Below, one piece after another: positions 39,230 through 51,049 of a stretch of 64,000 bases of DNA. Numbering within the stretch: position 1 is the stretch's first letter; the number at the start of each line of letters is the position of its first letter. The stretch spans positions 744,001-808,000 of the forward strand of contig NZ_QKVK01000001.1 in assembly GCF_003234965.1 (NCBI RefSeq), written 5' to 3'. Under the pieces are notes generated by a model, which saw only the letters and a list, made by a program, of their open reading frames with translations, had not been told where the DNA came from and ran no database searches. The DNA comes from Aestuariivirga litoralis. GTDB lineage: Bacteria > Pseudomonadota > Alphaproteobacteria > Rhizobiales > Aestuariivirgaceae. The position numbers were made by a program, and so were the translations under genes.

Positions 39230-40531
39230 CTACTGCAGAACGGGTTCCTTGAAGGTCACGCGCAGCGCCCGGTTGCCGTCTCCCTCGATGCCGAAGTCCG
39301 AGTCGTTGAACACGATCATCTCGGTGGGGCTCATCACCGCCACGCCCTCGACCTTCTTGGGCATGCCCTCGACGTCGTCGGAGTCGAGCAGCAGGGTCTT
39401 GGCCACCGGCGTGATGCCCTTGGCCGCAAGGTCGGCGGCACTCAGCTGTTCGAGCGAAGGCAGCATGGCGGCATCGTCCCAGCTGGCGTCGAGCGGGCTC
39501 GCCGCGGCAAGGTCGACGGCATGGAACTTCGAGGTCTTGCCGATGCGCTCCAGCACCAGCAGCTTGTCAGGCCCGAGGAACACCATCTCGCTCATGCGCA
39601 CGGCATTCTGCTTCTGGGCTTCCTTCTTGTTGTCGGCGCGGAAGCTCGTCGCATCGTCCATCACGTAGACGAACTCGCCCAGCAGCTTGCCGGTGGCGCG
39701 GTCGATCTTCCACAGGCGGGTGTTGGCGCTCTTCTTGTAGGCATCGCTGTCCGGGTTGGCGAGCGGGCTCTGCATCAGCACATAGATCGTCGCGCCGTCG
39801 GGCGAGACCGCCACGTTCTCGATGCCGCGGTTCAGGTAGCGCTTTGCCATGATGGCGGGCAGGCTTCCCACCACCTCGACCTCGTCGTTCTTCAACGCGC
39901 CCTCGAGGCCGGCCGGCACGTGGCGCCGGGTCACCGTTCCGTCGGCTGCCACCTCGATGAGCGACGGACCATATTCCTCGCCGATCAGGAAGCTGCCGTC
40001 CGGCAGCCGCGCCAGCGTCTCGGTGTCGAAGCCGTTGACCGTGCCTGCCAGCAGCTTGCCATTGACGTCATAGGCGGCCTCGGTCCTGAAGCCCTCGGCC
40101 GAGAAGGGCAGGCCGCCCACCGGCTTGCCGGACCTGGTCTTGAGCGAGATGGTCTCGGTCACCGCCGCCACGTTGTCAGCACCCGTCTCGACCTTCTGGA
40201 TGGTGATGGTGAAATCGGGCTGGGGGAAGTTCTTGGCCTTGCCGTCGCCGGCGCACAGCACGTCCATGCCAAGGCCGGTCAGCTCCTCGATGCCCTCGCA
40301 GTCGAGGTTGGGCCCGCGGTCGGTGATGGTCCACACCACGCCGGGCGGGTCCTTCGGGTCGCGGAAGGCGGCCGAGCCGATGCCCCGGTTCAAGGTCAGC
40401 GTCTTGCCGCCGGGATAGGTGACCTGGCCCATCGGCAGGTCGGGCAGCTTGATCTCGGCAACGGTGGCATCCGCCGCCAGGGCGGCGGTGGCCGAGAGGG
40501 CGAAGACGGTGCTGAGCAGGACGGCGCGCAT
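39230..40531 (-). CDS. Secreted esterase-like/phytase-like beta-propeller protein
   Basis: A 433-aa protein with a Sec signal peptide (cleavage near ATAALA-AD). The body matches the esterase-like-activity-of-phytase family: TLNRGIGSAAFRDPKDPPG, TDRGPNLDCEG, ARLPDGSFLIGEEYGPSLIEV, NRGIENVAVSPDGATIYV and VEGVAVMSPTEMIVFNDSDFG. These are metal-dependent propellers that may cleave phosphoesters; true phytase activity is unproved. It lies 75 bp after apbE in the same direction. A PhoB/OmpR-like direct repeat sits 48 bp before its start, suggesting regulated, possibly separate, expression. Confidence 0.87.
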   Translation of the reverse strand: MRAVLLSTVFALSATAALAADATVAEIKLPDLPMGQVTYPGGKTLTLNRGIGSAAFRDPKDPPGVVWTITDRGPNLDCEGIEELTGLGMDVLCAGDGKAKNFPQPDFTITIQKVETGADNVAAVTETISLKTRSGKPVGGLPFSAEGFRTEAAYDVNGKLLAGTVNGFDTETLARLPDGSFLIGEEYGPSLIEVAADGTVTRRHVPAGLEGALKNDEVEVVGSLPAIMAKRYLNRGIENVAVSPDGATIYVLMQSPLANPDSDAYKKSANTRLWKIDRATGKLLGEFVYVMDDATSFRADNKKEAQKQNAVRMSEMVFLGPDKLLVLERIGKTSKFHAVDLAAASPLDASWDDAAMLPSLEQLSAADLAAKGITPVAKTLLLDSDDVEGMPKKVEGVAVMSPTEMIVFNDSDFGIEGDGNRALRVTFKEPVLQ

Positions 40532-40578
40532 GGGGATCTCCTTGCTGACTGGAAGGAGGGATGAGCTAGTGGCCGCGT

Positions 40579-40595
40579 CTGACAGTCTTGTGACG
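40579..40595 (-). promoter_or_regulatory. Direct-repeat operator upstream of the phytase-like gene
   Basis: Minus strand: CGTCAC-N5-TGTCAG with an 11-bp period, 48 bp before the ATG. It fits both the local box family (see 45239-45287) and a PhoB Pho box (CTGTCAC-like halves, 4-bp A-rich centre AAGA). Which regulator binds is inference. Confidence 0.5.
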
Positions 40596-40605
40596 GCCTG
40601 GGGCC

Positions 40606-41550
40606 TCAGGCGAAAACCGCTCCGGCCGGCCGGGCGATGACGCCGCCATCCGCCGCGCGGGTGAGGAACAGGGCGCTCAGCCCCTGCGCCGCGGCCATGG
40701 CAGCACCCTGCTCCGGCCCCAGCACCATCAGCGCCGTGGCCCAGCCATCGGCCTCGGCACAGGTCCTGGCAACGACACTCACCGAGGCCGGGCTTGCCGC
40801 CAGCGGCGCGCCGCGGCGCGGGTCCATGGTGTGCGACAGGCGCCGGCCGCCGACATCGACGAAGTGGCGATAATCGCCGGAGGTGGCCACCGCCGCATCT
40901 GCCAGCGCCAGCACCGAATGCGCCGCGCGCCGCGCATGGTCCGGCATTTCAACCGCGATGGTCCAGGCCTCGCCATCCGGCCGTAGACCGGCGGCGCGCA
41001 TCTCGCCGTCGATGCCGGCGAGGAATGAGGTGATGCCGAAGGCCTGCAGCGTCTCGGCCAGCCGGTCGACGCCATAGCCCTTGGCGATGCCATGGAGGTC
41101 GAGGGTGATGGCCCCATGCTTGCGAAGCCTGCCCTCGCCCAGTTCGATGACCTCGTAGCCCGGCCGCCGCGGCGCAGAAAGCGCGATGCGGATGCGCTCG
41201 CCGCTCGCCGCCCCGGGCCCGAAGCCCCAGGCGGTGACGGCATCGCCCAGCGCCACGTCGAAGGCCCCGCCCGAGGCCTTGCCGATGGCCAGCCCCAGCC
41301 GCAGCACCTCCATCAGGTGCCGTGGCGCCTCGATCCACGTGCCAACCGGTGCCTGGTTGATGCGCATCAGGTCGCTGTCGGGCTTCCAGCCGGACATCTG
41401 CTGGTCAACCTCCGCCACCGCGGCCTGCAACGCCTGCTGCAGGGGGGCCGGGTCGAAGCCCGCCGGGGTGAAGAACAGCGCCGACCAGCGCGTGCCCATG
41501 GTGGGGCCGTTCAGCGCATGGCGCATCATGTCAGTAGACGTCTTCGGCAT
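40606..41550 (-). CDS. apbE: FAD:protein FMN transferase (ApbE family), no signal peptide
   Basis: A 314-aa ApbE. Recognisable parts are MGTRWSAL at the N-terminus, DLHGIAKGYGVDRLAETL, SFLAGIDGEMRAAG, SHTMDPRRGAPL and CAEADGWATALMVLGPEQG with the Mg2+-binding Asp. ApbE attaches FMN from FAD to Ser/Thr of target proteins. Unlike most ApbE lipoproteins it has no leader: the start at 41550 (GGAGGGA Shine-Dalgarno) gives a soluble N-terminus. It overlaps the upstream flavoprotein gene by 20 bp, so it is coupled to it. A likely target is the DUF2271 protein in the same operon. Confidence 0.92.
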   Translation of the reverse strand: MPKTSTDMMRHALNGPTMGTRWSALFFTPAGFDPAPLQQALQAAVAEVDQQMSGWKPDSDLMRINQAPVGTWIEAPRHLMEVLRLGLAIGKASGGAFDVALGDAVTAWGFGPGAASGERIRIALSAPRRPGYEVIELGEGRLRKHGAITLDLHGIAKGYGVDRLAETLQAFGITSFLAGIDGEMRAAGLRPDGEAWTIAVEMPDHARRAAHSVLALADAAVATSGDYRHFVDVGGRRLSHTMDPRRGAPLAASPASVSVVARTCAEADGWATALMVLGPEQGAAMAAAQGLSALFLTRAADGGVIARPAGAVFA

Positions 41551-43738
41551 AGCGTCCCTCCGCCCTGAGCAGGGCCGGCGTCAGCCCGGCGGGGGCGAGG
41601 ATCTGGGCCAGCGCCTCGCTCACGCCCGCCGCCATGTCGCGCCCGCCGCACACCATGATGCGCGCCCCCTGCTTCACGAGGGCCAGCACCTCGGCGGCCT
41701 CGGCGCGCAGCGCGTCCTGCACGTAATGCGGCCGCCTGCCGCGCGAGGCCGCGGTGACGAGGCGCGTCAGCCGGCCTTCGCCATGCCACTGCGTGAGTTC
41801 CTCGCCATAGAGGAAATCGCTCGCCTGATGGCGCATGCCGAAGAACAGGTGGATGGGCCGCGCCGCCCGGTTGGCGCGGATGAAGCCGGCCAGCGGCCCG
41901 ATGCCGGAACCCGCGCCGATGAGGATCAGCGGGGCCGCGCCACCAGCGGGGCGGAAGGCGGGGTTGGGCCGCAGGAAGGCCTGCACCGTCTGGCCCGGCT
42001 CCAGCGCGGTGAGCTGGCCGGAGCACAGCCCGCCCGGCTGGCGCCGCACCACGATCTCGATGAAGCCGTCGGCGGCGCCCGAGGCCAGTGAATAGAAGCG
42101 CGGCACGCTGGATCCCTCCGGTATCACGCCCAGAAGGTCGCCCGCCACGAAGGCGCCGAAGCCGCGGCCCGTCAGGCGCTGCCACAGCGCCACCTTGGGC
42201 AGGCTGAAGCGCAGGATGGCACTGGGCGCCTGCACCTCGGCGCCATGGTCGCGGCGCGACACGAGCGTCAGCGCCAGCGCCGGCGGCGCCACCGGCTGGT
42301 GCACCAGGTCGAGCGGCAGGCCCAGCATCGTGCCGAGGTCGCTGCCCCAGCGCGCGAAGTCCTGCGGCGACTGGCGGTCGACCGTGGCCATGTCGAGAAG
42401 CTGGCCCCAGCCCTTTGCCGCGGCCAGCGTCGCGATGGTCCGCGCATAGCCGCAGAAGGAGGGGAAGCTCGAGTCACCAAAGCCCAGCACGGCAAGCGTC
42501 GCGGCGGGCGGCGTGTCGAGCGCCGCCAGCTTCGCGAGGAAGCCCCTGGCCGAGGCCGGCTCGTCGCCATTGCCATAGGTGGCGGCGAGGATGATGACGT
42601 GCCGCGCCTGGTGCAGCCTGTCCGCGTCAAACTGCGCCAGGGCTGCAGCATGAACCTGTTGTCCCGCCTCGCGCAGCGCCTTGTGCAGCGTCGCGGCGAA
42701 GCCCCAGGTGCTGCCGCCCTCGCTGCCCACCAGGATCACCGTTTCGGCGCTGGCAAGCGGGGAATTGTGCTGGATGCGCGGGCGGCCGCGGCGGCCGGCC
42801 AGCCACACCAGCGTGCCGGTGGCGGCCATCAGCGGCACGCCCAGCGCCAGGAGGCCGAGGATCAGCCCCAGTGCCGCCGCACCCTGTCCGGTGTGCAGCA
42901 TGTAGATGGTCTCGGACAGGCGCTGCCAGCCAGAAGACTTCTGCCACGCCAGCAACGCGCCATTGCCCTGGTCGATGAAGCCCTCGCCGTCGCTGGTCGC
43001 GAGGGTGAACACGTCTGCCGGGTCATCGGCGGCGGGGAAGGAGAGCTGCCGCAGGCTGCTCGCCGGCACGCCCTGGAGGAAGTCGATCTGTCCCACGGCG
43101 GCACCGGTCTCGCCGCTCACCTGGGCGGGAGCGGCAAGCGCAGCCGGGGCCTCGGGCGTCAGCCCGAAGGTCGAGGCCGTCATGTACAGCGCCGTCACGG
43201 ATGACAGCATGAGGCCCGCCACCGCGATGCGCGCCACCTCGACGTGAAGGCGTCCGGCCAGCGGGCCCTTGAGGCCTGAGAACCAGCGCCGCCAGCCGCC
43301 CGCGCGCCGTGCCACCAGCACCATGCCGGAGACGGAGAGCAGCAGCATCGCCACCGCGCCAAGCGCCATCACGATGCGCCCGCCATCATCGAGGAACAGC
43401 GAGCGGTGGAAATTGGTCAGCCAGCGCTGCACCGGGTTGGGGTCGGCAGAGGCCACGGCCTTGCCGGTGGCAGGGTCGATGGTCGCGGCCTCGGCCACGT
43501 CGCCGTTGAACCAGTAGGCGGTGAAGCGGCCGGAGGGCGAGCGCTTGATCTGCTCGACGCCCGGGTGCTGCGCCGCCACGCGGCTCGCCAGTTCGGCCAC
43601 GCTGAGGCCTTGTTCCGCCTGCGGCGCGGTGAGGCGGTCCGCCGCCGGAAACACCGACAGCGCCGCGCCGCTCAGCGCCAGCAGGACAACGAGCAGCAGG
43701 GCGGCAAGGCCCGGCCAGCGGTGCAGCAGACGGATCAT
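41531..43738 (-). CDS. PepSY-TM / flavodoxin / FNR fusion membrane reductase
   Basis: A 735-aa fusion. Residues 1-320 form a PepSY-associated transmembrane module with four predicted helices (about 8-33, 120-142, 167-188, 284-311) and periplasmic PepSY-like stretches (GVEQIKRSPSGRFTAYWF). Residues about 335-475 are a flavodoxin domain (VILVGSEGGSTWGFA, AATYGNGDEPASARGFL). Residues about 490-735 form a ferredoxin-NADP reductase domain (RFYSLASG, GAGSGIGPLAGFIRANR, MVCGGRDMAAGVSEAL). It should move electrons from cytosolic NADPH through FAD/FMN across the membrane. Its neighbours suggest a periplasmic flavoprotein as acceptor. Confidence 0.9.
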   Translation of the reverse strand: MIRLLHRWPGLAALLLVVLLALSGAALSVFPAADRLTAPQAEQGLSVAELASRVAAQHPGVEQIKRSPSGRFTAYWFNGDVAEAATIDPATGKAVASADPNPVQRWLTNFHRSLFLDDGGRIVMALGAVAMLLLSVSGMVLVARRAGGWRRWFSGLKGPLAGRLHVEVARIAVAGLMLSSVTALYMTASTFGLTPEAPAALAAPAQVSGETGAAVGQIDFLQGVPASSLRQLSFPAADDPADVFTLATSDGEGFIDQGNGALLAWQKSSGWQRLSETIYMLHTGQGAAALGLILGLLALGVPLMAATGTLVWLAGRRGRPRIQHNSPLASAETVILVGSEGGSTWGFAATLHKALREAGQQVHAAALAQFDADRLHQARHVIILAATYGNGDEPASARGFLAKLAALDTPPAATLAVLGFGDSSFPSFCGYARTIATLAAAKGWGQLLDMATVDRQSPQDFARWGSDLGTMLGLPLDLVHQPVAPPALALTLVSRRDHGAEVQAPSAILRFSLPKVALWQRLTGRGFGAFVAGDLLGVIPEGSSVPRFYSLASGAADGFIEIVVRRQPGGLCSGQLTALEPGQTVQAFLRPNPAFRPAGGAAPLILIGAGSGIGPLAGFIRANRAARPIHLFFGMRHQASDFLYGEELTQWHGEGRLTRLVTAASRGRRPHYVQDALRAEAAEVLALVKQGARIMVCGGRDMAAGVSEALAQILAPAGLTPALLRAEGRYAEDVY

Positions 43739-43751
43739 TCCCGGATGGTCC

Positions 43752-44225
43752 TCACATGCCGTAGGTCAGGGTGGACACATAGCGGCGGCCCTTCACGGGC
43801 TTTCCGGCGCCGGCCGTGGTGAGCGGCACCTTCACGTCGTTGGCGCTGTCGCGCATGTCCTCGACGGCGCCATCGACGTGCAGCGTGTAGCCCGCGTCGA
43901 ACAGCGCGTCCTTGAGGTCGAGGGTGATCTCCAGCGTGCGGCCGGCCCCCACCGAGGCGCCGGTGATGCCGTTGATCTGGCCCGTGTCGCCGCCCGTCGC
44001 CTGGTACCAGTTGGCCAGGTGCTTGTAGTACTTCGTCTTGCTGCCCGCCATCCACAGGCTGCCGGCATAGGCGCCGGACTTGTCGGTCACATAGATGGCG
44101 AGATAGGCGCCGTTGCCGCCATAGTCCTTCAGCGTGGTGGTCAGCGTCACCGGCTTGGCCATGGCCGCGGCGGGAAAGCCCAGCGCGGTGGTCAGCGCCA
44201 GCACGGCGAGGAATGATTTCATCAT
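43752..44225 (-). CDS. Secreted DUF2271 protein with flavinylation-like motif
   Basis: A 157-aa protein with a Sec signal peptide (residues 1-23, ending AAAMA). The mature part matches DUF2271: YLAIYVTDKSGAYAGSLWMA, KYYKHLANWYQ, LEITLDLKDALFDAGYTLHV. At residues 85-91 it carries NGITGAS, close to the [DN]-x-x-[ST]-G-A-[ST] sequence to which ApbE links FMN, making Ser91 a candidate flavin site (inference). It lies 13 bp upstream of the membrane reductase gene and is probably its periplasmic electron acceptor. Confidence 0.85.
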   Translation of the reverse strand: MMKSFLAVLALTTALGFPAAAMAKPVTLTTTLKDYGGNGAYLAIYVTDKSGAYAGSLWMAGSKTKYYKHLANWYQATGGDTGQINGITGASVGAGRTLEITLDLKDALFDAGYTLHVDGAVEDMRDSANDVKVPLTTAGAGKPVKGRRYVSTLTYGM

Positions 44226-44255
44226 GTCACTGTGTCTCCAGTTGGCTGCGGGCGG

Positions 44256-44636
44256 TCACTTCACCTGCACCTGCGGGGTGCCGGTGCCGAACAGGCCGTT
44301 CTGCGGCGGCGCCACGCTGCCGGCCGGGGCGGCGGCCGGCGTGCCGGCGCCGCAGCTGCCGGCGTCGTCCTCGCAGTCGTCATCATCGTCATCATCTTCG
44401 CCCTCGTCGTCGTCGTCCGACTTGCGGCGGCCCACGCTGCCGCCCTCGTCATCGTCATCGTCCTCATCGTCGTCGACGAGGATCAGCCTGGCCGCCGTGT
44501 CGCCGCTGTCGGCCAGCGTCGCCAGCAGCGCCGCCGCGCCGCCCTGGGCGGGCGCCTGCATGGCGCTCCACGCCGGAACGCCAAGGGCGGCGGTCAGCGC
44601 GGTGGAGGCAACGAGGATCATCAGTGTCTTGCTCAT
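44256..44636 (-). CDS. Secreted Asp/Glu-rich small protein
   Basis: A 126-aa protein starting MSKTLMILVASTALTAALG (Sec signal peptide). The middle (about residues 55-92) is extremely acidic, with Asp runs broken only by Glu, Ser, Gly and a GRRKS patch; the end is Ala/Pro/Gly/Gln-rich. Two Cys (CEDDAGSC) may form a disulfide. No named family is recognised. Acidic periplasmic proteins of this kind often bind Ca2+ or other cations; that is inference. AGGAGA at good spacing supports the ATG at 44636 over an upstream one at 44666. It heads the DUF2271-reductase-apbE run. Confidence 0.75.
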   Translation of the reverse strand: MSKTLMILVASTALTAALGVPAWSAMQAPAQGGAAALLATLADSGDTAARLILVDDDEDDDDDEGGSVGRRKSDDDDEGEDDDDDDDCEDDAGSCGAGTPAAAPAGSVAPPQNGLFGTGTPQVQVK

Positions 44637-44680
44637 GGCAGGGTCTCCTGTTGGTGTGTCCCGCAAACTGGCCGCGGCAA

Positions 44681-44697
44681 CTGAGGCCTTCCTGACG
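44681..44697 (-). promoter_or_regulatory. Direct-repeat operator upstream of the Asp-rich gene
   Basis: Minus strand CGTCAG-GAAGG-CCTCAG (11-bp period) ends 45 bp before the ATG of the Asp-rich gene, the same placement as the box before the PepSY gene. Predicted binding site for the neighbouring OmpR-type regulator. Confidence 0.5.
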
Positions 44698-44712
44698 GCG
44701 CTGCAAAATCAG

Positions 44713-44729
44713 CTTCAGCTTGCCGTCAG
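44713..44729 (+). promoter_or_regulatory. Second direct-repeat operator, opposite orientation
   Basis: Plus strand CTTCAG-CTTGC-CGTCAG, followed by CTTGG. The flanks GCTTCAG and GTCAGCTTGG are shared with the box at 45239-45255, so the two 23-bp sites are nearly identical apart from the spacer. A further CAGCTT half-site precedes it. Confidence 0.5.
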
Positions 44730-44828
44730 CTTGGGCCCCGCCCGGGACCGGTGCCTTCGGCAACGAGTCATCGCCACCGGGGCGAAGGCCCCGATGGCGG
44801 CGTTGGATGCAATGTCCGAGAATGCCCC

Positions 44829-44857
44829 CTTATACCCCAGCCAGCGCGCGCTGTCAA
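44829..44857 (-). promoter_or_regulatory. Near-consensus sigma-70 promoter
   Basis: Minus strand: -35 TTGACA (44852-44857), 17-bp spacer, -10 TATAAG (44829-44834). It directs transcription toward the Asp-rich gene and gives a leader of about 185 nt. The leader contains a strong hairpin (CCATCGGGGC-CTTC-GCCCCGGTGG) and then the two operator-like boxes before the ATG at 44636. It could instead start a small RNA. Confidence 0.65.
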
Positions 44858-44895
44858 GGATTTTCTTCCTTATATAAGAATGACCGGATGAAGCC

Positions 44896-45189
44896 TCAGT
44901 CGTCGTCCTCGCCGTGCCCGGAGTCCTCGCTCTCGATGTCGATCACCTCCAGCGTGGCGGGGTTGACCGTCACCTCGATGCGCTTGCCCGCCTGGTCCTT
45001 GCCGTCGATCTCGTAGCAGCCGTCATCGATCTTGATGCGCCGCACCGTCCAGCCCCTGGCCTGCGCCAGCTTGGCCACCGCCTCGCGCGGCTGCCAGTCG
45101 GCCATCGGCACGAAGCAGCCCTCCTCGGCCAGCGCCGCGCTGGCCGGAAGGCACGCCACCAGGGCAAGGATCATCAGTGTCTTCCGCAT
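44896..45189 (-). CDS. Small secreted PepSY-domain protein
   Basis: A 97-aa protein. Sec signal MRKTLMILALVACLPASAALA, then one PepSY module (MADWQPREAVAKLAQARGWT, KIDDGCYEIDGKDQAGKRIEV) and an acidic tail (ESEDSGHGEDDD). Such single-PepSY proteins are often encoded next to OmpR-type two-component systems. The first ~25 nt of coding sequence match those of the Asp-rich gene. GGAAG precedes the ATG at 45189. It is divergent from the regulator gene with a shared 121-bp control region. Confidence 0.85.
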   Translation of the reverse strand: MRKTLMILALVACLPASAALAEEGCFVPMADWQPREAVAKLAQARGWTVRRIKIDDGCYEIDGKDQAGKRIEVTVNPATLEVIDIESEDSGHGEDDD

Positions 45190-45238
45190 CGGGCGCTTCC
45201 ATGTTACGGCCAGTCTCGCCGCACCATGCGGCGCCAAG

Positions 45239-45255
45239 CTGACAGCAGCCTGAAG
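45239..45255 (-). promoter_or_regulatory. Direct-repeat operator upstream of the PepSY gene
   Basis: Minus strand CTTCAG-GCTGC-TGTCAG followed by CTTGG, ending 50 bp before the ATG of the small PepSY gene. Just downstream is an inverted repeat CGCCGCA-N3-TGCGGCG (45217-45233). Predicted response-regulator binding site. Confidence 0.55.
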
Positions 45256-45270
45256 CCCGCCACGGCGGGT

Positions 45271-45287
45271 CGTCAGGCGGGCGTCAG
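45271..45287 (+). promoter_or_regulatory. Direct-repeat operator upstream of the response regulator gene
   Basis: Plus strand CGTCAG-GCGGG-CGTCAG, a perfect hexamer repeat with 11-bp period, 24 bp before the regulator ATG. It suggests autoregulation of the two-component operon. Confidence 0.55.
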
Positions 45288-45310
45288 CCGCCGGGCACAG
45301 AAGGAACACC

Positions 45311-45970
45311 ATGCGAATCCTGCTGATCGAGGACGACACGGTTCTGGGCGCCGCGGTGCGCGACCAGATCGCCGCCGACGGCCACTCGGTCGACTGGATG
45401 ACGCGCCTCGACCAGGCGCGCGACGCGCTGGCGGGTGCGGCCTATGACCTCGTGCTGCTCGACCTCATGCTGCCGGACGGGCTCGGCCTGCCCTTCCTCA
45501 AGGCGCTGCGCATTCGCGGCGACGTGACGCCGGTGATCATCCTCACCGCCCTCGACCAGGTGTCGGACCGCATCGACGGCCTCAATGCCGGGGCCGACGA
45601 CTATCTCGTCAAGCCCTTCGACCTTGCCGAGCTGTCGGCCCGCATCGGCTCGGTGGCGCGGCGCTATACCGGCAACCCCAATCCCATCATCACCCACGGC
45701 GACCTTGAAATCGACCGCGCGGCGAAAAGCGTGCGGCGCGGCGGCAAGCCCGTTGCCCTCACCGCGCGCGAATGGGCGCTGTTCGATGCCTTCCTGGCGC
45801 GGCCCGGCCAGCTGCTCTCCAAGGCGCAGCTCGAAGAGAAGCTCTATGCCTTCGATGCCGAGGTCGAGAGCAACACCATCGAGGTGCATGTCAGCCGCCT
45901 GCGCAAGAAGCTCGGCAACGAGGTGATCGCCACCGAGCGCGGCCTCGGCTACCGGCTGGGCACGCCGTGA
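45311..45970 (+). CDS. OmpR-family response regulator (QseB/PmrA-like)
   Basis: A 219-aa response regulator. The receiver domain has acidic pocket EDD (residues 7-9), phosphoacceptor D51 in VLLDLMLPDG and the conserved Lys in DDYLVKPFDL. The winged-helix output domain starts near 125 (LEIDRAAKSVRRGG) and ends EVIATERGLGYRLG. It overlaps the kinase gene by 4 bp (GTGA). Upstream direct repeats suggest it controls itself and the divergent PepSY gene and, by matching boxes, the Asp-rich and phytase-like genes. Confidence 0.95.
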   Translation: MRILLIEDDTVLGAAVRDQIAADGHSVDWMTRLDQARDALAGAAYDLVLLDLMLPDGLGLPFLKALRIRGDVTPVIILTALDQVSDRIDGLNAGADDYLVKPFDLAELSARIGSVARRYTGNPNPIITHGDLEIDRAAKSVRRGGKPVALTAREWALFDAFLARPGQLLSKAQLEEKLYAFDAEVESNTIEVHVSRLRKKLGNEVIATERGLGYRLGTP

Positions 45971-47337
45971 CGGCGCCGCGCAGCCTGCAGGCGCGGCTCG
46001 GCCTCTGGCTCGGCCTGCTGCTCACCCTGCTGTGGGTCGCCGCGGCCTCGGTCACCGCGGTCATGCTGCGCAAGGAGATCAACGAGGTCTTCGATTCGGC
46101 CCTGCAGGAAACCGCCCAGCGCCTGCTGCCGCTCGCCGTCATGGACATCGTCGACCGCGAGGATGACGGCGCCACCCAGCGCCTCGGCGCCCTGCGCGGC
46201 CATGACGAGTATTTCACCTATGTGGTGCGCGACGCGCAGGGCCGCGTCCTGCTGCAGTCGCACGCCGCCGACCCCGCCGTCTTTCCGCCCTATGTGAAGC
46301 CGGGCTTCAGTCAGACCGCGCAGCATCGGATCTACAGCGACGAGGCGCTGAAGGGCAGCCTGCGCATCTCGGTGGCCGAGCCGCTGGCCCACCGCGCCAG
46401 CGTGCTGCGCGAGATCGTGCTGGCACTCGGCCTGCCGCTGCTGCTGGTCATTCCGGTTGCCCTCCTCACCATCGTGCTGGTGGTGCGGGCGAGCCTCGCG
46501 CCGCTGCGCCGCTTCAGCGCCAGGCTCGCCTCGCGCGGCGGGCGCGATCTCTCCGCCGTGCCGGCCGACGGGCTTCCCGCCGAGATCACGCCGGTCGCCG
46601 CCGCCCTCAACGACGTGCTGGCCAGGCTCAAGGCCGCCTTCGAGGCGGAGCGCAGCTTCGCCTCGCATGCCGCGCATGAACTGCGCACGCCGCTGGCCGG
46701 CGCCATCGCCCAGGCCCAGCGCCTGCGCGGCGAAACCGCCGACCCCGCCGCACAGGCCCGCGCCGCCGGGATCGAGGCGACGCTGAAGCGCCTCACCCGC
46801 CTGTCGGAGCGGCTGATGCAGCTGGCCCGCGCCGAGGGCGGACGGCTCAGGCTCGATGCCCCGCGTGACCTGCGGCCCGCCGCCCGCATCGTGGTGGAGG
46901 ATGCCGCGCGCGGCAGCCCGGGGCGCGTCAGGCTGACGCTTCCCCAAACACCCGTGCTCTCCGACCTCGATCCCGATGCCTTCGGCATCCTGCTCCGCAA
47001 CCTGGTGGACAACGCGCTCCGCCACGGCAAGGAAGATGGCATCGTCGAAGTCGACCTCGCACCCGGCGGCACCCTGCGCGTCGTCAATGACGGGCCAGTG
47101 GTGCCGCCCGAAACCCTGTCGCGGCTCACCGCGCGCTTCGAGCGCGGCACGGCGGGCAATGAAGGCAGCGGGCTGGGCCTCGCCATCGTCGCGGCCATTG
47201 CCGACCGGCTGTGCAGCAGCCTCGTGCTGCGCTCGCCCGCCACGGGGCGCGACGCAGGCTTCGAGGTCGCGATCGCCCTTCCGGCCGAGCCCGGCCTTGC
47301 GGCAGATCAAACCGCGGCCGGCCGGACCGACGCATAG
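45967..47337 (+). CDS. Sensor histidine kinase (QseC/PmrB-like)
   Basis: A 456-aa membrane kinase starting at a GTG that overlaps the regulator stop. TM1 is at about 10-33, a ~120-aa periplasmic sensor follows with YFTYVVRDAQGRVLLQS, then TM2 at about 158-178 and a HAMP-like linker. The DHp box is FASHAAHELRTPLAGAIAQA with the phospho-His. The ATPase domain has LLRNLVDNALRHG (N box) and EGSGLGLAIVAAIA (G2 box). The sensed signal is unknown. The VIT-family metal transporter follows after 40 bp, so Fe/Mn or redox stress is an attractive guess. Confidence 0.93.
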   Translation: MTAPRSLQARLGLWLGLLLTLLWVAAASVTAVMLRKEINEVFDSALQETAQRLLPLAVMDIVDREDDGATQRLGALRGHDEYFTYVVRDAQGRVLLQSHAADPAVFPPYVKPGFSQTAQHRIYSDEALKGSLRISVAEPLAHRASVLREIVLALGLPLLLVIPVALLTIVLVVRASLAPLRRFSARLASRGGRDLSAVPADGLPAEITPVAAALNDVLARLKAAFEAERSFASHAAHELRTPLAGAIAQAQRLRGETADPAAQARAAGIEATLKRLTRLSERLMQLARAEGGRLRLDAPRDLRPAARIVVEDAARGSPGRVRLTLPQTPVLSDLDPDAFGILLRNLVDNALRHGKEDGIVEVDLAPGGTLRVVNDGPVVPPETLSRLTARFERGTAGNEGSGLGLAIVAAIADRLCSSLVLRSPATGRDAGFEVAIALPAEPGLAADQTAAGRTDA

Positions 47338-47377: not shown

Positions 47378-48100
47378 ATGAGCGGCGGCAAGACCGAACT
47401 TCCCTACCAGTCGGCCCACGAGGAGCTGCACTACATCAACCGCTCCGGCTGGCTGCGCGCCGCGGTGCTCGGCGCCAATGACGGCATCGTGTCGGTGTCC
47501 TCGCTGGTGGTCGGCGTCGCCGCCGCCGATCCTTCGCCCTCCGCCGTGCTCATCGCGGGCTTCGCCGGCCTCGCTGCCGGTGCGATGTCGATGGCGGCCG
47601 GCGAATATGTCTCCGTCAGCTCGCAGTCCGACATCGAGCAGGCCGACATCGCGCGCGAGCGCCAGGCCCTCATCGACACGCCGGAAGCGGAAGAGGCCGA
47701 GCTCGCCTCGATCTATGAAGCGCGCGGCCTCACGCCTGCCACCGCGGCCCTCGTGGCGCGCGAGCTGACGGCGAAGGATGCGCTGGCCGCCCATGTGCGT
47801 GACGAGCTCGGCCTGTCGGAGGTGCATGCCGCCAACCCGCTGCAGGCGGCACTGGCCTCCGGCCTCACCTTCTGCGTTGCCGCTGCATTGCCGGTGATCG
47901 CCGCCATCCTCGCGCCGCCCGGCCAGATCATCCTCACGGTCGTCATCACCACGCTGGTGGCGCTGGCGGGCCTCGGCGCGCTCGGCGCCCATGCGGGTGC
48001 CGCCCCCAAGCTGCCCGCCACCCTGCGCGTGCTGTTCTGGGGCGCGGCCGCCATGGCCATCACGGCGGGCGTGGGCCACCTCTTCGGGGTCAGCGTCTAG
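47378..48100 (+). CDS. VIT1/CCC1-family metal transporter
   Basis: A 240-aa integral membrane protein of the VIT family, which moves Fe2+ or Mn2+ out of the cytoplasm. The signature RAAVLGANDGIVSVSSLVVG opens TM1; GAMSMAAGEYVSVSSQSD completes TM2; a cytoplasmic Glu-rich metal-binding helix region (about 75-140, with ERQALIDTPEAEEAELASIY) follows, then three more helices. Length is typical for bacterial members. Only 40 bp separate it from the kinase gene, so co-transcription with the two-component system is likely. Confidence 0.92.
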   Translation: MSGGKTELPYQSAHEELHYINRSGWLRAAVLGANDGIVSVSSLVVGVAAADPSPSAVLIAGFAGLAAGAMSMAAGEYVSVSSQSDIEQADIARERQALIDTPEAEEAELASIYEARGLTPATAALVARELTAKDALAAHVRDELGLSEVHAANPLQAALASGLTFCVAAALPVIAAILAPPGQIILTVVITTLVALAGLGALGAHAGAAPKLPATLRVLFWGAAAMAITAGVGHLFGVSV

Positions 48101-48213
48101 GCGCCGAAAGCCCGCCAGTCGGCCCGACACAGCACTGTCATATCCCGCGCCTAGCAACGCGCCTGCCGCCGCGATCGACCGCGCGCGGCCAGGCAACACA
48201 ACAGGATATGATC

Positions 48214-49317
48214 ATGACATTCTCCACCCGGCTTCTGCATTCCACCATGGCACTGGCCATGCTTGCGTCGGCCGTTCCTGCGCAGGCTGGCGCGATGGAA
48301 GACCTCGTGGCCGCCGCGCAGAAGGAAGGCGAGCTCACCGTCATCGCGCTGCCGCGCGACTGGTGCGGCTATGGCAAGGTGATCGACGGCTTCAAGGCCA
48401 AGTACAATCTCAAGGTCAACGAGCTCAACCCGGATGCGGGCTCGGCCGACGAGCTCGAGGCGATCCGCGCCAACAAGGACAACAAGGGCCCGCAGGCCCC
48501 CGACGTGATCGACGTCGGCCTCGCCTTCGGCCCGCAGGCCCAGAAGGAAGGCCTGCTGCAGCCCTACAAGGTCATGACCTGGGACGAGATCCCGGCCGAC
48601 GTGAAGGACGCCGACGGCCACTGGTATGCCGACTACTACGGCGTCATGGCCTTCGGCGTGAACAAGGACATCGTCAAGACCACGCCCGCCGACTGGGCCG
48701 ACCTGCTGAAGCCCGACTATGCCAACTCCGTTGCCCTGACCGGCGATCCGCGCGCCTCGAACCAGGCGATCCTCGCCATCATGTCGGCCGGCATGTCGCG
48801 GGGCGCCCAGCCCGGCACCGAATCGGGCGAGAAGGGCCTCGAACTGATGGCCGAGCTCAACAAGGCCGGCAATTTCGTGCCCGTCACCGGCAAGTCCGGC
48901 ACCATCGCCCAGGGCCAGACGCCGATCGTGGTCGCCTGGGACTACAACCTGCTCGCCTGGCGTGACAGCCTGAAGGGCAACCCGCCGATGGACGTGGTGA
49001 TCCCCGCCTCCTCCTCGCTCGCCGGTGTCTATGTGCAGGCGATCTCGGCCTTCGCACCGCACCCCAATGCTGCCAGGCTGTGGATGGAATACATCTACTC
49101 GGACGAAGGCCAGCTCGCCTGGCTCGAGGGCTACTGCCACCCTGCGCGCTTCAACGCCATGTCGGCCGCCGGCAAGATCTCTCCCGAGCTGCTGGCCAAG
49201 CTGCCGCCCGCCGAAGGCTATGCCAAGGCCGTGTTCCCCACCGTCGCGCAGCAGGAGGCCAACAAGGCCGCCGTCACCGGCGGCTGGGACAAGGTCGTCG
49301 GTGCCAACGTCCAGTAG
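48214..49317 (+). CDS. ABC transporter substrate-binding protein
   Basis: A 367-aa secreted binding protein of the extracellular-solute-binding family 1/6 group (AfuA/PotD-like). Signal peptide ends near VPAQA-GAME. Recognisable parts are EGELTVIALPRDWCGYGKVI, ADYYGVMAFGVNKDIV and the typical EYIYSDEGQLAWLEGY. Ligands of such proteins include Fe3+, polyamines, thiamine and 2-aminoethylphosphonate; none can be chosen from sequence. ACAGGA is at the right distance for the ATG at 48214 and too close for that at 48208. A stem-loop follows the stop, then two permeases and an ATPase. Confidence 0.88.
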   Translation: MTFSTRLLHSTMALAMLASAVPAQAGAMEDLVAAAQKEGELTVIALPRDWCGYGKVIDGFKAKYNLKVNELNPDAGSADELEAIRANKDNKGPQAPDVIDVGLAFGPQAQKEGLLQPYKVMTWDEIPADVKDADGHWYADYYGVMAFGVNKDIVKTTPADWADLLKPDYANSVALTGDPRASNQAILAIMSAGMSRGAQPGTESGEKGLELMAELNKAGNFVPVTGKSGTIAQGQTPIVVAWDYNLLAWRDSLKGNPPMDVVIPASSSLAGVYVQAISAFAPHPNAARLWMEYIYSDEGQLAWLEGYCHPARFNAMSAAGKISPELLAKLPPAEGYAKAVFPTVAQQEANKAAVTGGWDKVVGANVQ

Positions 49318-49340
49318 CGGCGCAGAAGCTCCCGCAACGC

Positions 49341-49368
49341 GCTCCGTCCCGCTGCCGCGGGACGGAGC
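49341..49368 (+). promoter_or_regulatory. Intercistronic stem-loop after the binding-protein gene
   Basis: A perfect 11-bp stem (GCTCCGTCCCG/CGGGACGGAGC, loop CTGCCG) without T-run lies between binding-protein and permease genes. Such structures commonly stabilise the 3' end of the abundant binding-protein mRNA and lower downstream expression. Confidence 0.6.
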
Positions 49369-49388
49369 CTTCCATTGGAACACCGAGC

Positions 49389-50264
49389 ATGAGCGTGACG
49401 GCACCGCCGCGGCGCAGCGAACATCCGGTCCTCAAATGGCTCGGCGTGGCGCCCTTCGCGCTCTTCGCCCTGCTCTTCCTCATCCTGCCGACGATCCGCA
49501 TCGTCATCGCCTCCTTCCAGACGCCGGAGGGGCGCTTCACCCTCGGCAACCTCGCCGGGCTTGCCACCCCCAGCATCCTCGACGCCGCCATGCTGTCGCT
49601 GAAGCTGAGCCTCGTCACCGCCTTCTTCGGCGGCCTCATCGGCCTCGTCATCGCCGTCGCGGTAACGCGCGGCGGGCTGCCGGACTGGCTGCGCGGCGGC
49701 ATGCTCACCTTCTCGGGGGTTGCCTCCAACTTCGCCGGCGTGCCGCTGGCCTTCGCCTTCATCGCCACGCTCGGGCGCCTTGGCCTCGTCACCGTGCTGC
49801 TGCGCGACTGGTTCGGCATCAACCTCGCCGCGCTGGGCTTCAACCTCATCAGCTTCACCGGGCTTGCCGTCACCTATCTCTATTTCCAGATCCCGCTGAT
49901 GATCCTCATCATCACGCCGGCCCTCGACGGCCTGAAGCGCGAGTGGAACGAGGCGGCACAGACGCTGGGCGCCAGCAACGCGCAATACTGGCGCATGGTG
50001 GCGCTCCCCGTGCTGTGGCCGGCGCTGCTCGGCTCCTTCGCGCTGCTCTTCGCCAATGCCTTCGGCGCGGTGGCCACCGCCATGGCGCTCACCGGCTCGG
50101 CACTGTCGATCGTGCCCATCATCCTCTTCGCACAGATCCGCGGCGACGTGCTGAACGATCCGCATCTGGGCTACGCGCTGGCCTTCGGCATGATCGTCGT
50201 CACCGGCATCGCCAACCTCATCTACATCCTGCTCCGCGTGCGGGCGGAAAGGTGGCTGAAATGA
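49389..50264 (+). CDS. ABC transporter permease (PotB/CysT-like)
   Basis: A 291-aa permease with about six transmembrane helices and the EAA loop EWNEAAQTLGASNAQYWRMV. The ATG at 49389 follows a GAACACCGAGC stretch; the open frame upstream is antisense-like read-through of the binding-protein gene and is not used. It overlaps the second permease by 4 bp. Together they form a heterodimeric channel for the binding protein upstream. Confidence 0.92.
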   Translation: MSVTAPPRRSEHPVLKWLGVAPFALFALLFLILPTIRIVIASFQTPEGRFTLGNLAGLATPSILDAAMLSLKLSLVTAFFGGLIGLVIAVAVTRGGLPDWLRGGMLTFSGVASNFAGVPLAFAFIATLGRLGLVTVLLRDWFGINLAALGFNLISFTGLAVTYLYFQIPLMILIITPALDGLKREWNEAAQTLGASNAQYWRMVALPVLWPALLGSFALLFANAFGAVATAMALTGSALSIVPIILFAQIRGDVLNDPHLGYALAFGMIVVTGIANLIYILLRVRAERWLK

Positions 50265-51049
50265 CGCCGGGCAGGGTCTGGGCCTGGGTCGCCGCGGGCT
50301 TCGGCGCAATCTACTTCGCGCTGCCGCTCATCGGCACCTTCGAGTTCTCGCTGCGGGCGCGGCGCGGCGTCTATTCCTTCGACGCCTACCGCAGCGTGCT
50401 GGCCGACCCGCAGTTCCAGGCGACCTTCCTCTATTCCGTGGTCATGGCGCTGCTCACCATCGTCATGGGCGTGCTGATCGTGACGCCCACCGCATTCTGG
50501 GTCAGGCTCAAGCTGCCGTCGATCCGGCCGGTGGTCGAGTTCATCACCCTGCTGCCGCTGGTCATCCCGCCCATCGTGCTGGTCTTCGGCTACATCCGCC
50601 TCTACAACACCGCGAGCGTCCTGCCGCTGACCGGTTCCACCCTGGGCACCAACCTGCTGCTCATGCTGGGCTACACCACGCTGGCACTCCCCTACATGTA
50701 CCGCGCCGTCGACACCGGGCTGCGCACCCTCGACGTGCGCACCATCACCGAAGCCGCCCAGATGCTGGGCGCGGGCTGGCTCACCATCCTCGCCCGGCTG
50801 ATCCTGCCCAATGTGCTGGTGGCCGTCTTGTCCGGCGCCTTCCTCACCTTCGCCATCGTCATCGGCGAATATGTGCTGGCTGCCCTTCTCAACCGACCCG
50901 CCTTCGGGCCCTACATGGTGTGGATGGGGTCCAACCGCGCCTATGAGCCGGCGGCCCTTGCCGTCATCGCCTTCGCCGTCACCTGGGGTTGCCTCGGGCT
51001 GATCCAGCTCGCCACCCGCCTTGCCCCGCATACGAGAGCCAGACGCTGA
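50261..51049 (+). CDS. ABC transporter permease (PotC-like)
   Basis: A 262-aa permease, six predicted helices, EAA loop RTITEAAQMLGAGWLTILAR, and a C-terminal segment FAIVIGEYVLAALLN typical of the polyamine/phosphonate/iron type permeases. Start and stop overlap the flanking genes by 4 bp and 1 bp, a fully coupled operon. Confidence 0.92.
   Translation: MTPGRVWAWVAAGFGAIYFALPLIGTFEFSLRARRGVYSFDAYRSVLADPQFQATFLYSVVMALLTIVMGVLIVTPTAFWVRLKLPSIRPVVEFITLLPLVIPPIVLVFGYIRLYNTASVLPLTGSTLGTNLLLMLGYTTLALPYMYRAVDTGLRTLDVRTITEAAQMLGAGWLTILARLILPNVLVAVLSGAFLTFAIVIGEYVLAALLNRPAFGPYMVWMGSNRAYEPAALAVIAFAVTWGCLGLIQLATRLAPHTRARR

Follow-up and report, generated by a model that had tools for sequence, protein, structure and literature searches.

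The described bacterial systems closest to the locus discussed here are of two kinds. The first is the PepSY-like class of extracytosolic flavinylation systems, whose core is formed by a PepSY_TM membrane protein, a DUF2271 protein and ApbE (Méheust et al. 2021, PMC8238504); a NAD-binding domain is present in a subset of these systems, VIT1 in some of the clusters, and flavinylation of DUF2271 at its [S/T]GA[S/T] motif has been demonstrated in another species (PMC8238504). Thousands of bacterial genomes contain clusters of PepSY, DUF2271 and ApbE genes. The second kind is DbfQRS, known from Vibrio cholerae and Pseudomonas aeruginosa (PA2658/PA2659-BqsRS), in which a small secreted PepSY protein is encoded beside an OmpR-type regulator and a kinase, and binds the sensor domain of the latter, biasing it towards phosphatase activity; the arrangement is sometimes divergent and the PepSY proteins are sometimes two (PMC12714742, 2025). 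Both kinds are found joined in a single locus of Aestuariivirga litoralis, located in the 64,000-nucleotide stretch hereafter called the window (G000:C1:744001-808000, in the 4.23-Mb genome G000), and we consider it probable that this locus is a self-contained, horizontally mobile module for reduction in the periplasm, having a metal as its most likely acceptor and a two-component control of its own.

The module has in common with the PepSY-like systems the PepSY_TM domain, a DUF2271 protein with the [S/T]GA[S/T] motif and ApbE, and differs from them in having its own two-component system, a small PepSY protein, a tailed acidic protein, a private dyad operator and a flavodoxin domain within the reductase. 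With DbfQRS it shares the small PepSY gene, which the DbfQRS criterion places at ≤4 genes from the kinase/regulator genes and which is here adjacent and divergent; unlike DbfQRS, its output is a private electron-transfer operon and its PepSY proteins often bear an additional tail. The preliminary description, made from the sequence of the window alone, had called the locus under-described, a qualification that does not apply to reductase, DUF2271 and ApbE (PMC8238504) or to the small PepSY protein with its two-component system (PMC12714742), all of which are published, and that stands for their union under one operator. No description of the union of both published parts with a private operator, tailed proteins and metal-transporter neighbours was met with in the papers searched, nor did the literature search yield a paper joining PepSY, two-component, b561 and flavodoxin. 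What appears undescribed is the dedicated regulation, together with one family of small proteins.

All eight genes initially listed, namely six on the minus strand facing a divergent regulator/kinase pair, are present with the coordinates and the families then given, apart from two corrected starts. That their association extends well beyond pairs of genes, a point that the preliminary description had left to be checked in other genomes, is seen from a comparison of 40 loci, the window counted in, from chromosomes and plasmids of Alpha-, Beta- and Gammaproteobacteria. These loci derive from a genome scan (13 loci), from a plasmid search (97 records) and from two draws of ~400 genomes apiece, one within the class and one within the phylum, which supplied further full-length relatives. 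DUF2271 and the PepSY-flavodoxin-FNR reductase are present in all 40 loci and ApbE in 38; 35 loci have an adjoining kinase and regulator, and the same number have a small PepSY protein. In the usual order, kinase and regulator genes run in one direction and, in the opposite one, small PepSY, an optional b561- or ferric-reductase-like gene, the gene of an acidic or PepSY-tail protein, DUF2271, reductase and ApbE. This arrangement far exceeds chance, since it recurs in dozens of loci, and the module is real, conserved and often plasmid-borne; outside Alphaproteobacteria it was found on records of plasmids from Cupriavidus, Paraburkholderia and Salmonella Cubana. Rhodobacter capsulatus and Roseovarius are among its carriers.

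The optional gene, found in ~16 loci in all (e.g., L104:5558-6943, L106:6677-7993, L092, L100 and L105) and not present in the window, lies in many loci between the small PepSY and the acidic/DUF2271 genes; its membrane protein product, of b561 type or ferric-reductase-like (NOX-type), is a second transmembrane electron carrier. A variant that lacks ApbE and encodes a ferric-reductase-like protein as well as DUF6448 is found in the Salmonella Cubana plasmid and in genome G535 (L106 and L100), where the operator boxes are single or differently spaced.

The operator came to light as a repeated TCAG motif between the regulator and small PepSY genes. A 20-bp matrix, CTTCAG-N6-GTCAGCTT, derived from 12 loci, was tested on 23 others. 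In 20 of these, an inverted pair of boxes with an offset of 35 or 36 bp lies ~30-65 bp from the regulator start and scores well over block-shuffled sequence. Of the remaining three, L100 has an offset of 27 and L106 a single box, while in L110 the genes are arranged otherwise and the dyad is upstream of DUF2271. In many loci, the window among them, a second pair precedes the acidic-protein/DUF2271 operon. When the whole window genome was searched with the corresponding 49-bp pattern, CTGA-N7-CTGA-N19-TCAG-N7-TCAG, allowing ≤1 mismatch, exactly two dyads were found, both perfect and one for each module promoter: operator 1 (45239..45287) between the divergent small PepSY and regulator genes, and operator 2 (44681..44729) upstream of the Asp-rich/DUF2271/reductase/ApbE operon, neither being assigned to a strand. 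Of 14 further whole genomes, all from other species, 13 likewise have two in-module dyads and G753 has one; there is one additional distant match in G635, and the reversed control pattern gave no match save one in G752. The paired-box search of G000 returned no site outside the module, and two candidates for extra regulon members, single boxes with one mismatch at C12:453601 and C20:224626, were discarded as unpaired, the latter lying moreover within the open reading frame (ORF) of a tetratricopeptide-repeat (TPR) protein.

These data point to a dedicated regulon with two operators, to which the regulator would bind, and are in keeping with the common control by the local two-component system that had been proposed at the outset, both promoters sharing the same private site. 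The box resembles that of the P. aeruginosa ferrous-iron system BqsRS, likewise a direct repeat with an 11-bp pitch and with adjoining PepSY genes; TTAAG-N6-TTAAG of BqsR and TTCAG-N6-GTCAG of the module have the same geometry and different letters (PMC4682146). Unlike BqsRS, for which there are hundreds of candidate sites, the module has about two operators per genome, and its boxes form a dyad with 35-bp offset (PMC4682146).

The operator is retained even where the module is split. The nearest named relative by reductase search is an Aestuariivirga metagenome-assembled genome (MAG), a sister genome in which the module is divided between two contigs; the dyad persists upstream of the detached operon (score 39.5) and one strong box in the regulator promoter. 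In L001 and L002, both close relatives devoid of an adjacent two-component system, a regulator 91% or 82% identical is encoded on another contig. Directly before the detached acidic-protein operon of the MAG there is a transposase-like ORF (L001:8544-8888). In two genomes of another class (G432 and G436), DUF2271-reductase-ApbE operons (L102 and L103) have a dyad-like site in front and lack adjacent two-component genes, the closest regulators genome-wide being ~50% identical.

The regulator (45311..45970, plus strand) belongs to the OmpR family, the nearest NCBIfam models, below cut-off, being PmrA/QseB. It is followed, with a four-base overlap, by the gene of a QseC-like sensor histidine kinase with a 2CSK_N sensor region (45967..47337, plus strand), which starts, as corrected, at GTG 45967. 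The sensor domain of BqsRS contains an RExxE motif; this motif is absent from the window kinase and scattered among its relatives. The small periplasmic, DbfQ-like PepSY_2 protein (44896..45189, minus strand; PF13670 7.5e-30) has two invariant cysteines, C25 and C58, and a PepSY fold whose nearest neighbours, at weak E-values, are YpmB and YpeB. By analogy with the effect of DbfQ on DbfS, it would probably bias the kinase. With the module, DbfQ-type PepSY signalling would gain a clear local output.

The Asp-rich secreted protein (44256..44636, minus strand, 44636 being the corrected best start) belongs to no known family, and none of the models in the libraries searched matched it. Its C-terminus, PAGSVAPPQNGLFGTGTPQVQVK (44259..44336, minus strand), is nevertheless conserved, most of its relatives ending in PAGxVxPPxNGLFxxGxPPxVxVN. 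The same tail is borne by the small PepSY protein itself in several loci (e.g., L066, L067, L095, L108 and L109) and by a second PepSY protein in L004, L094 and L105; with a simple, loose pattern that misses some cases it was detected in 28 of 40 loci, 15 of which have it on a PepSY protein. Since this fusion links them, the Asp-rich and small PepSY proteins look like two forms of one kind, which points to a small-protein family made of an acidic or PepSY body and a conserved tail, whose members are probably docking or metal-binding partners of the module.

The electron path can be traced with some detail from the remaining genes of the operon. The reductase (735 aa; 41531..43738, minus strand), encoded between DUF2271 and ApbE, is a fusion of PepSY_TM (PF03929, 4e-34), flavodoxin (Flavodoxin_1) and flavin adenine dinucleotide (FAD)/NADPH reductase (NAD_binding_1) domains. 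Its N-terminal profile matches the ferrisiderophore reductase FoxB (7ABW, 1.7e-8), which holds two hemes (PMC11334425); the heme-ligand positions are aligned, and His 6, 111, 165 and 282 are invariant in 40 of 40 sequences. The C-terminal half resembles, in sequence and fold, the sulfite reductase flavoprotein and cytochrome P450 reductase, with flavin mononucleotide (FMN), FAD and NADPH domains in the same order as in CysJ and P450 reductase; the kinship with FoxB emerges from the sequence profile, the fold search with the model (pLDDT 77.5, pTM 0.51) being dominated by diflavin reductases. The module reductase differs from FoxB in its fused NADPH diflavin part and in its pairing with DUF2271 and ApbE, and from CysJ or P450 reductase in that its diflavin half is joined to a membrane heme domain instead of serving sulfite reductase or P450. 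The DUF2271 protein (43752..44225, minus strand; PF10029 1.4e-33), encoded by the sole DUF2271 gene of the genome, has an N-terminus that by eye resembles a signal peptide and a NGITGAS motif in which Thr88 (codon 43962..43964, minus strand) is the predicted site of flavinylation; an [ST]GAS motif and a signal peptide recur in DUF2271 of the loci read. The presumed flavinylating enzyme is the FAD:protein FMN transferase ApbE (40606..41550, minus strand; PF02424 6.3e-77; PDB 5MGY 4.3e-62), whose gene overlaps that of the reductase by 20 bp.

These features, read from sequence, agree with the earlier proposals that NADPH electrons pass through the membrane reductase and that DUF2271 is flavinylated, and suggest the route NADPH → FAD → FMN → heme → FMN-DUF2271. 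NADPH would feed electrons to the FAD and FMN of the diflavin half in the cytosol; two b-type hemes, with the four histidines of the FoxB-like half as ligands, would then carry them over the inner membrane to the FMN attached by ApbE to Thr88 of the secreted DUF2271, and from there they would be delivered to a periplasmic acceptor, while the kinase/regulator pair would switch both operons through the 49-bp dyads.

As to the nature of the acceptor, a first indication comes from the neighbouring genes. Behind the kinase, after a gap of 40 bp, there is a VIT1-family transporter gene (47378..48100, plus strand; Pfam 5.3e-66; PDB VIT1 6IU3 2.4e-20) that had escaped the preliminary description and that has the same position in the sister genome and in L096. 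This VIT gene has counterparts of 85-89% identity in L096 (613-1317) and in the sister MAG (L129:3918-4637), unlike the kinase and reductase of L096, whose identity is ~61%, a difference that hints at transfer or at an unusually strong constraint.

For control, 20 DUF2271 loci of the ordinary kind were taken from the phylum and read in the same way as the module loci; genes for a kinase, a regulator, a small PepSY protein, a VIT transporter and a P-type ATPase were missing from all of them and, instead of a paired operator, two isolated weak boxes were all that was found. A two-component system is linked in 25 of 27 module genome loci and in 0 of 20 control loci (p 2e-11), and a VIT or P-type ATPase gene is nearby in 12 and 0 of them, respectively (Fisher p 4e-4), with the caveats that the loci are related by descent, the flanks reach up to 10 kb in one case and 6 kb in the other, the queries were drawn from module loci and some of the ATPases do not belong to the heavy-metal types. 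A VIT or P-type ATPase gene is also present in each of the ten plasmid loci opened, which were chosen from the match list and not randomly; on the plasmids of Thioclava and Pseudosulfitobacter, the apparent operon closes with a P1B ATPase and a VIT gene placed after ApbE. Since this subtype possesses its own switch and a defined operator, and its apparent operon includes metal exporters in several lineages, both its signal and its substrate can be searched for.

A transition metal, in the first place iron, is the most likely acceptor in view of the VIT and P-type ATPases, of the PepSY_TM precedents (FoxB, VciB and CrpH) and of the acidic proteins; ferric iron may be the substrate. VIT and P1B-ATPase relatives usually carry metal out of the cytosol, which makes uptake a somewhat less likely function than metal tolerance or handling. 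Several observations weigh against this picture. The P-type ATPases are of mixed types (TPC, SPC, CPC and non-P1B), so that no single metal is indicated, and in over half of the genome loci neither a VIT nor an ATPase gene is nearby. Furthermore, the site of flavinylation poses a difficulty: ApbE works normally in the periplasm, yet it lacks a signal peptide in every module locus read, there being no room before the ApbE domain, whereas its presumed substrate DUF2271 is exported by a Sec-type signal (L001-L013, L066-L069 and L092-L103, as in the window). This is not a peculiarity of the window, a possibility rejected in view of ordinary DUF2271 clusters (among L161-L180), where ApbE is apparently leaderless too. 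Secreted ApbE is usual in the PepSY-like systems, although not required by their published definition (PMC8238504), and in the known bacterial case of a cytosolic ApbE the target is a cytosolic enzyme (PMC12052999). Finally, in Caulobacter and Shewanella members of the wider PepSY-like class are Fur-repressed iron genes, which favours uptake there (PMC8238504).

The last point is among those that speak for an assimilatory ferric or ferric-siderophore reductase, a role already proposed for the PepSY-like systems at large, which would reduce periplasmic Fe(III) for Fe(II) uptake with VIT acting as the importer. FoxB and VciB, both PepSY_TM proteins, do act in iron reduction, VIT1 occurs in 167 of the PepSY-like clusters (PMC8238504), and mutants of the Caulobacter cluster are sensitive to EDTA (ethylenediaminetetraacetate; PMC12004947). 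The module has instead its own two-component system and operator, and a TonB receptor was not seen in the annotated plasmid loci. The associated VIT and P-type ATPases are, in addition, generally thought to be metal exporters, and we regard an assimilatory role as unlikely, albeit deserving attention.

A further possibility, to which we give rather little credence, is that the electron chain itself belongs to the sensor, forming a closed loop that would measure and set the redox state of periplasmic metal through its own two operators. The tail, on the acidic or small PepSY protein, would dock on flavinylated DUF2271 or on the reductase, and the redox or metal-loading state would be relayed by the PepSY protein to the kinase.

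Also improbable is an envelope-repair or redox-stress system analogous to MsrPQ/HprSR, in which oxidants or an oxidised protein of the periplasm, and not a metal, would receive the electrons. The architecture is analogous, with a two-component system presiding over a transmembrane heme donor and a periplasmic redox protein, the additional b561- or ferric-reductase-like proteins would fit it, and DbfRS responds to membrane integrity (PMC12714742). On the other hand, neither MsrQ (PF01794) nor MsrP was found among the scanned window proteins, and MsrP, catalase, peroxidase and other repair enzymes do not recur in the annotated loci, whereas metal transporters do. That an ordinary PepSY-like flavinylation operon lies by accident beside an unrelated DbfQRS-type module, each half being indeed found separately elsewhere (PMC8238504, PMC12714742), is very improbable and already contradicted by the equal gene order in most of the 40 loci and by the private operator common to both halves, kept where these are split.

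Within the window the module is flanked by genes that do not belong to it. A single-copy gene for a phytase-like (PF13449, Pfam 7.6e-38) secreted beta-propeller (39230..40531, minus strand) lies 74 bp after ApbE; it is absent from all other loci, and no operator-like site over threshold precedes it, a CTGAC-N6-GTGAC seen by hand scoring below threshold. Since this gene is not conserved with the module, the initial suggestion that ferric reduction takes place at phytate-like chelates is unsupported. On the other side, the ABC transporter that begins at 48208 was excluded from the module, being missing from the other loci; its genes (48208-51049) follow the VIT gene and include one for a PhnS-like/SBP_bac_6 binding protein.

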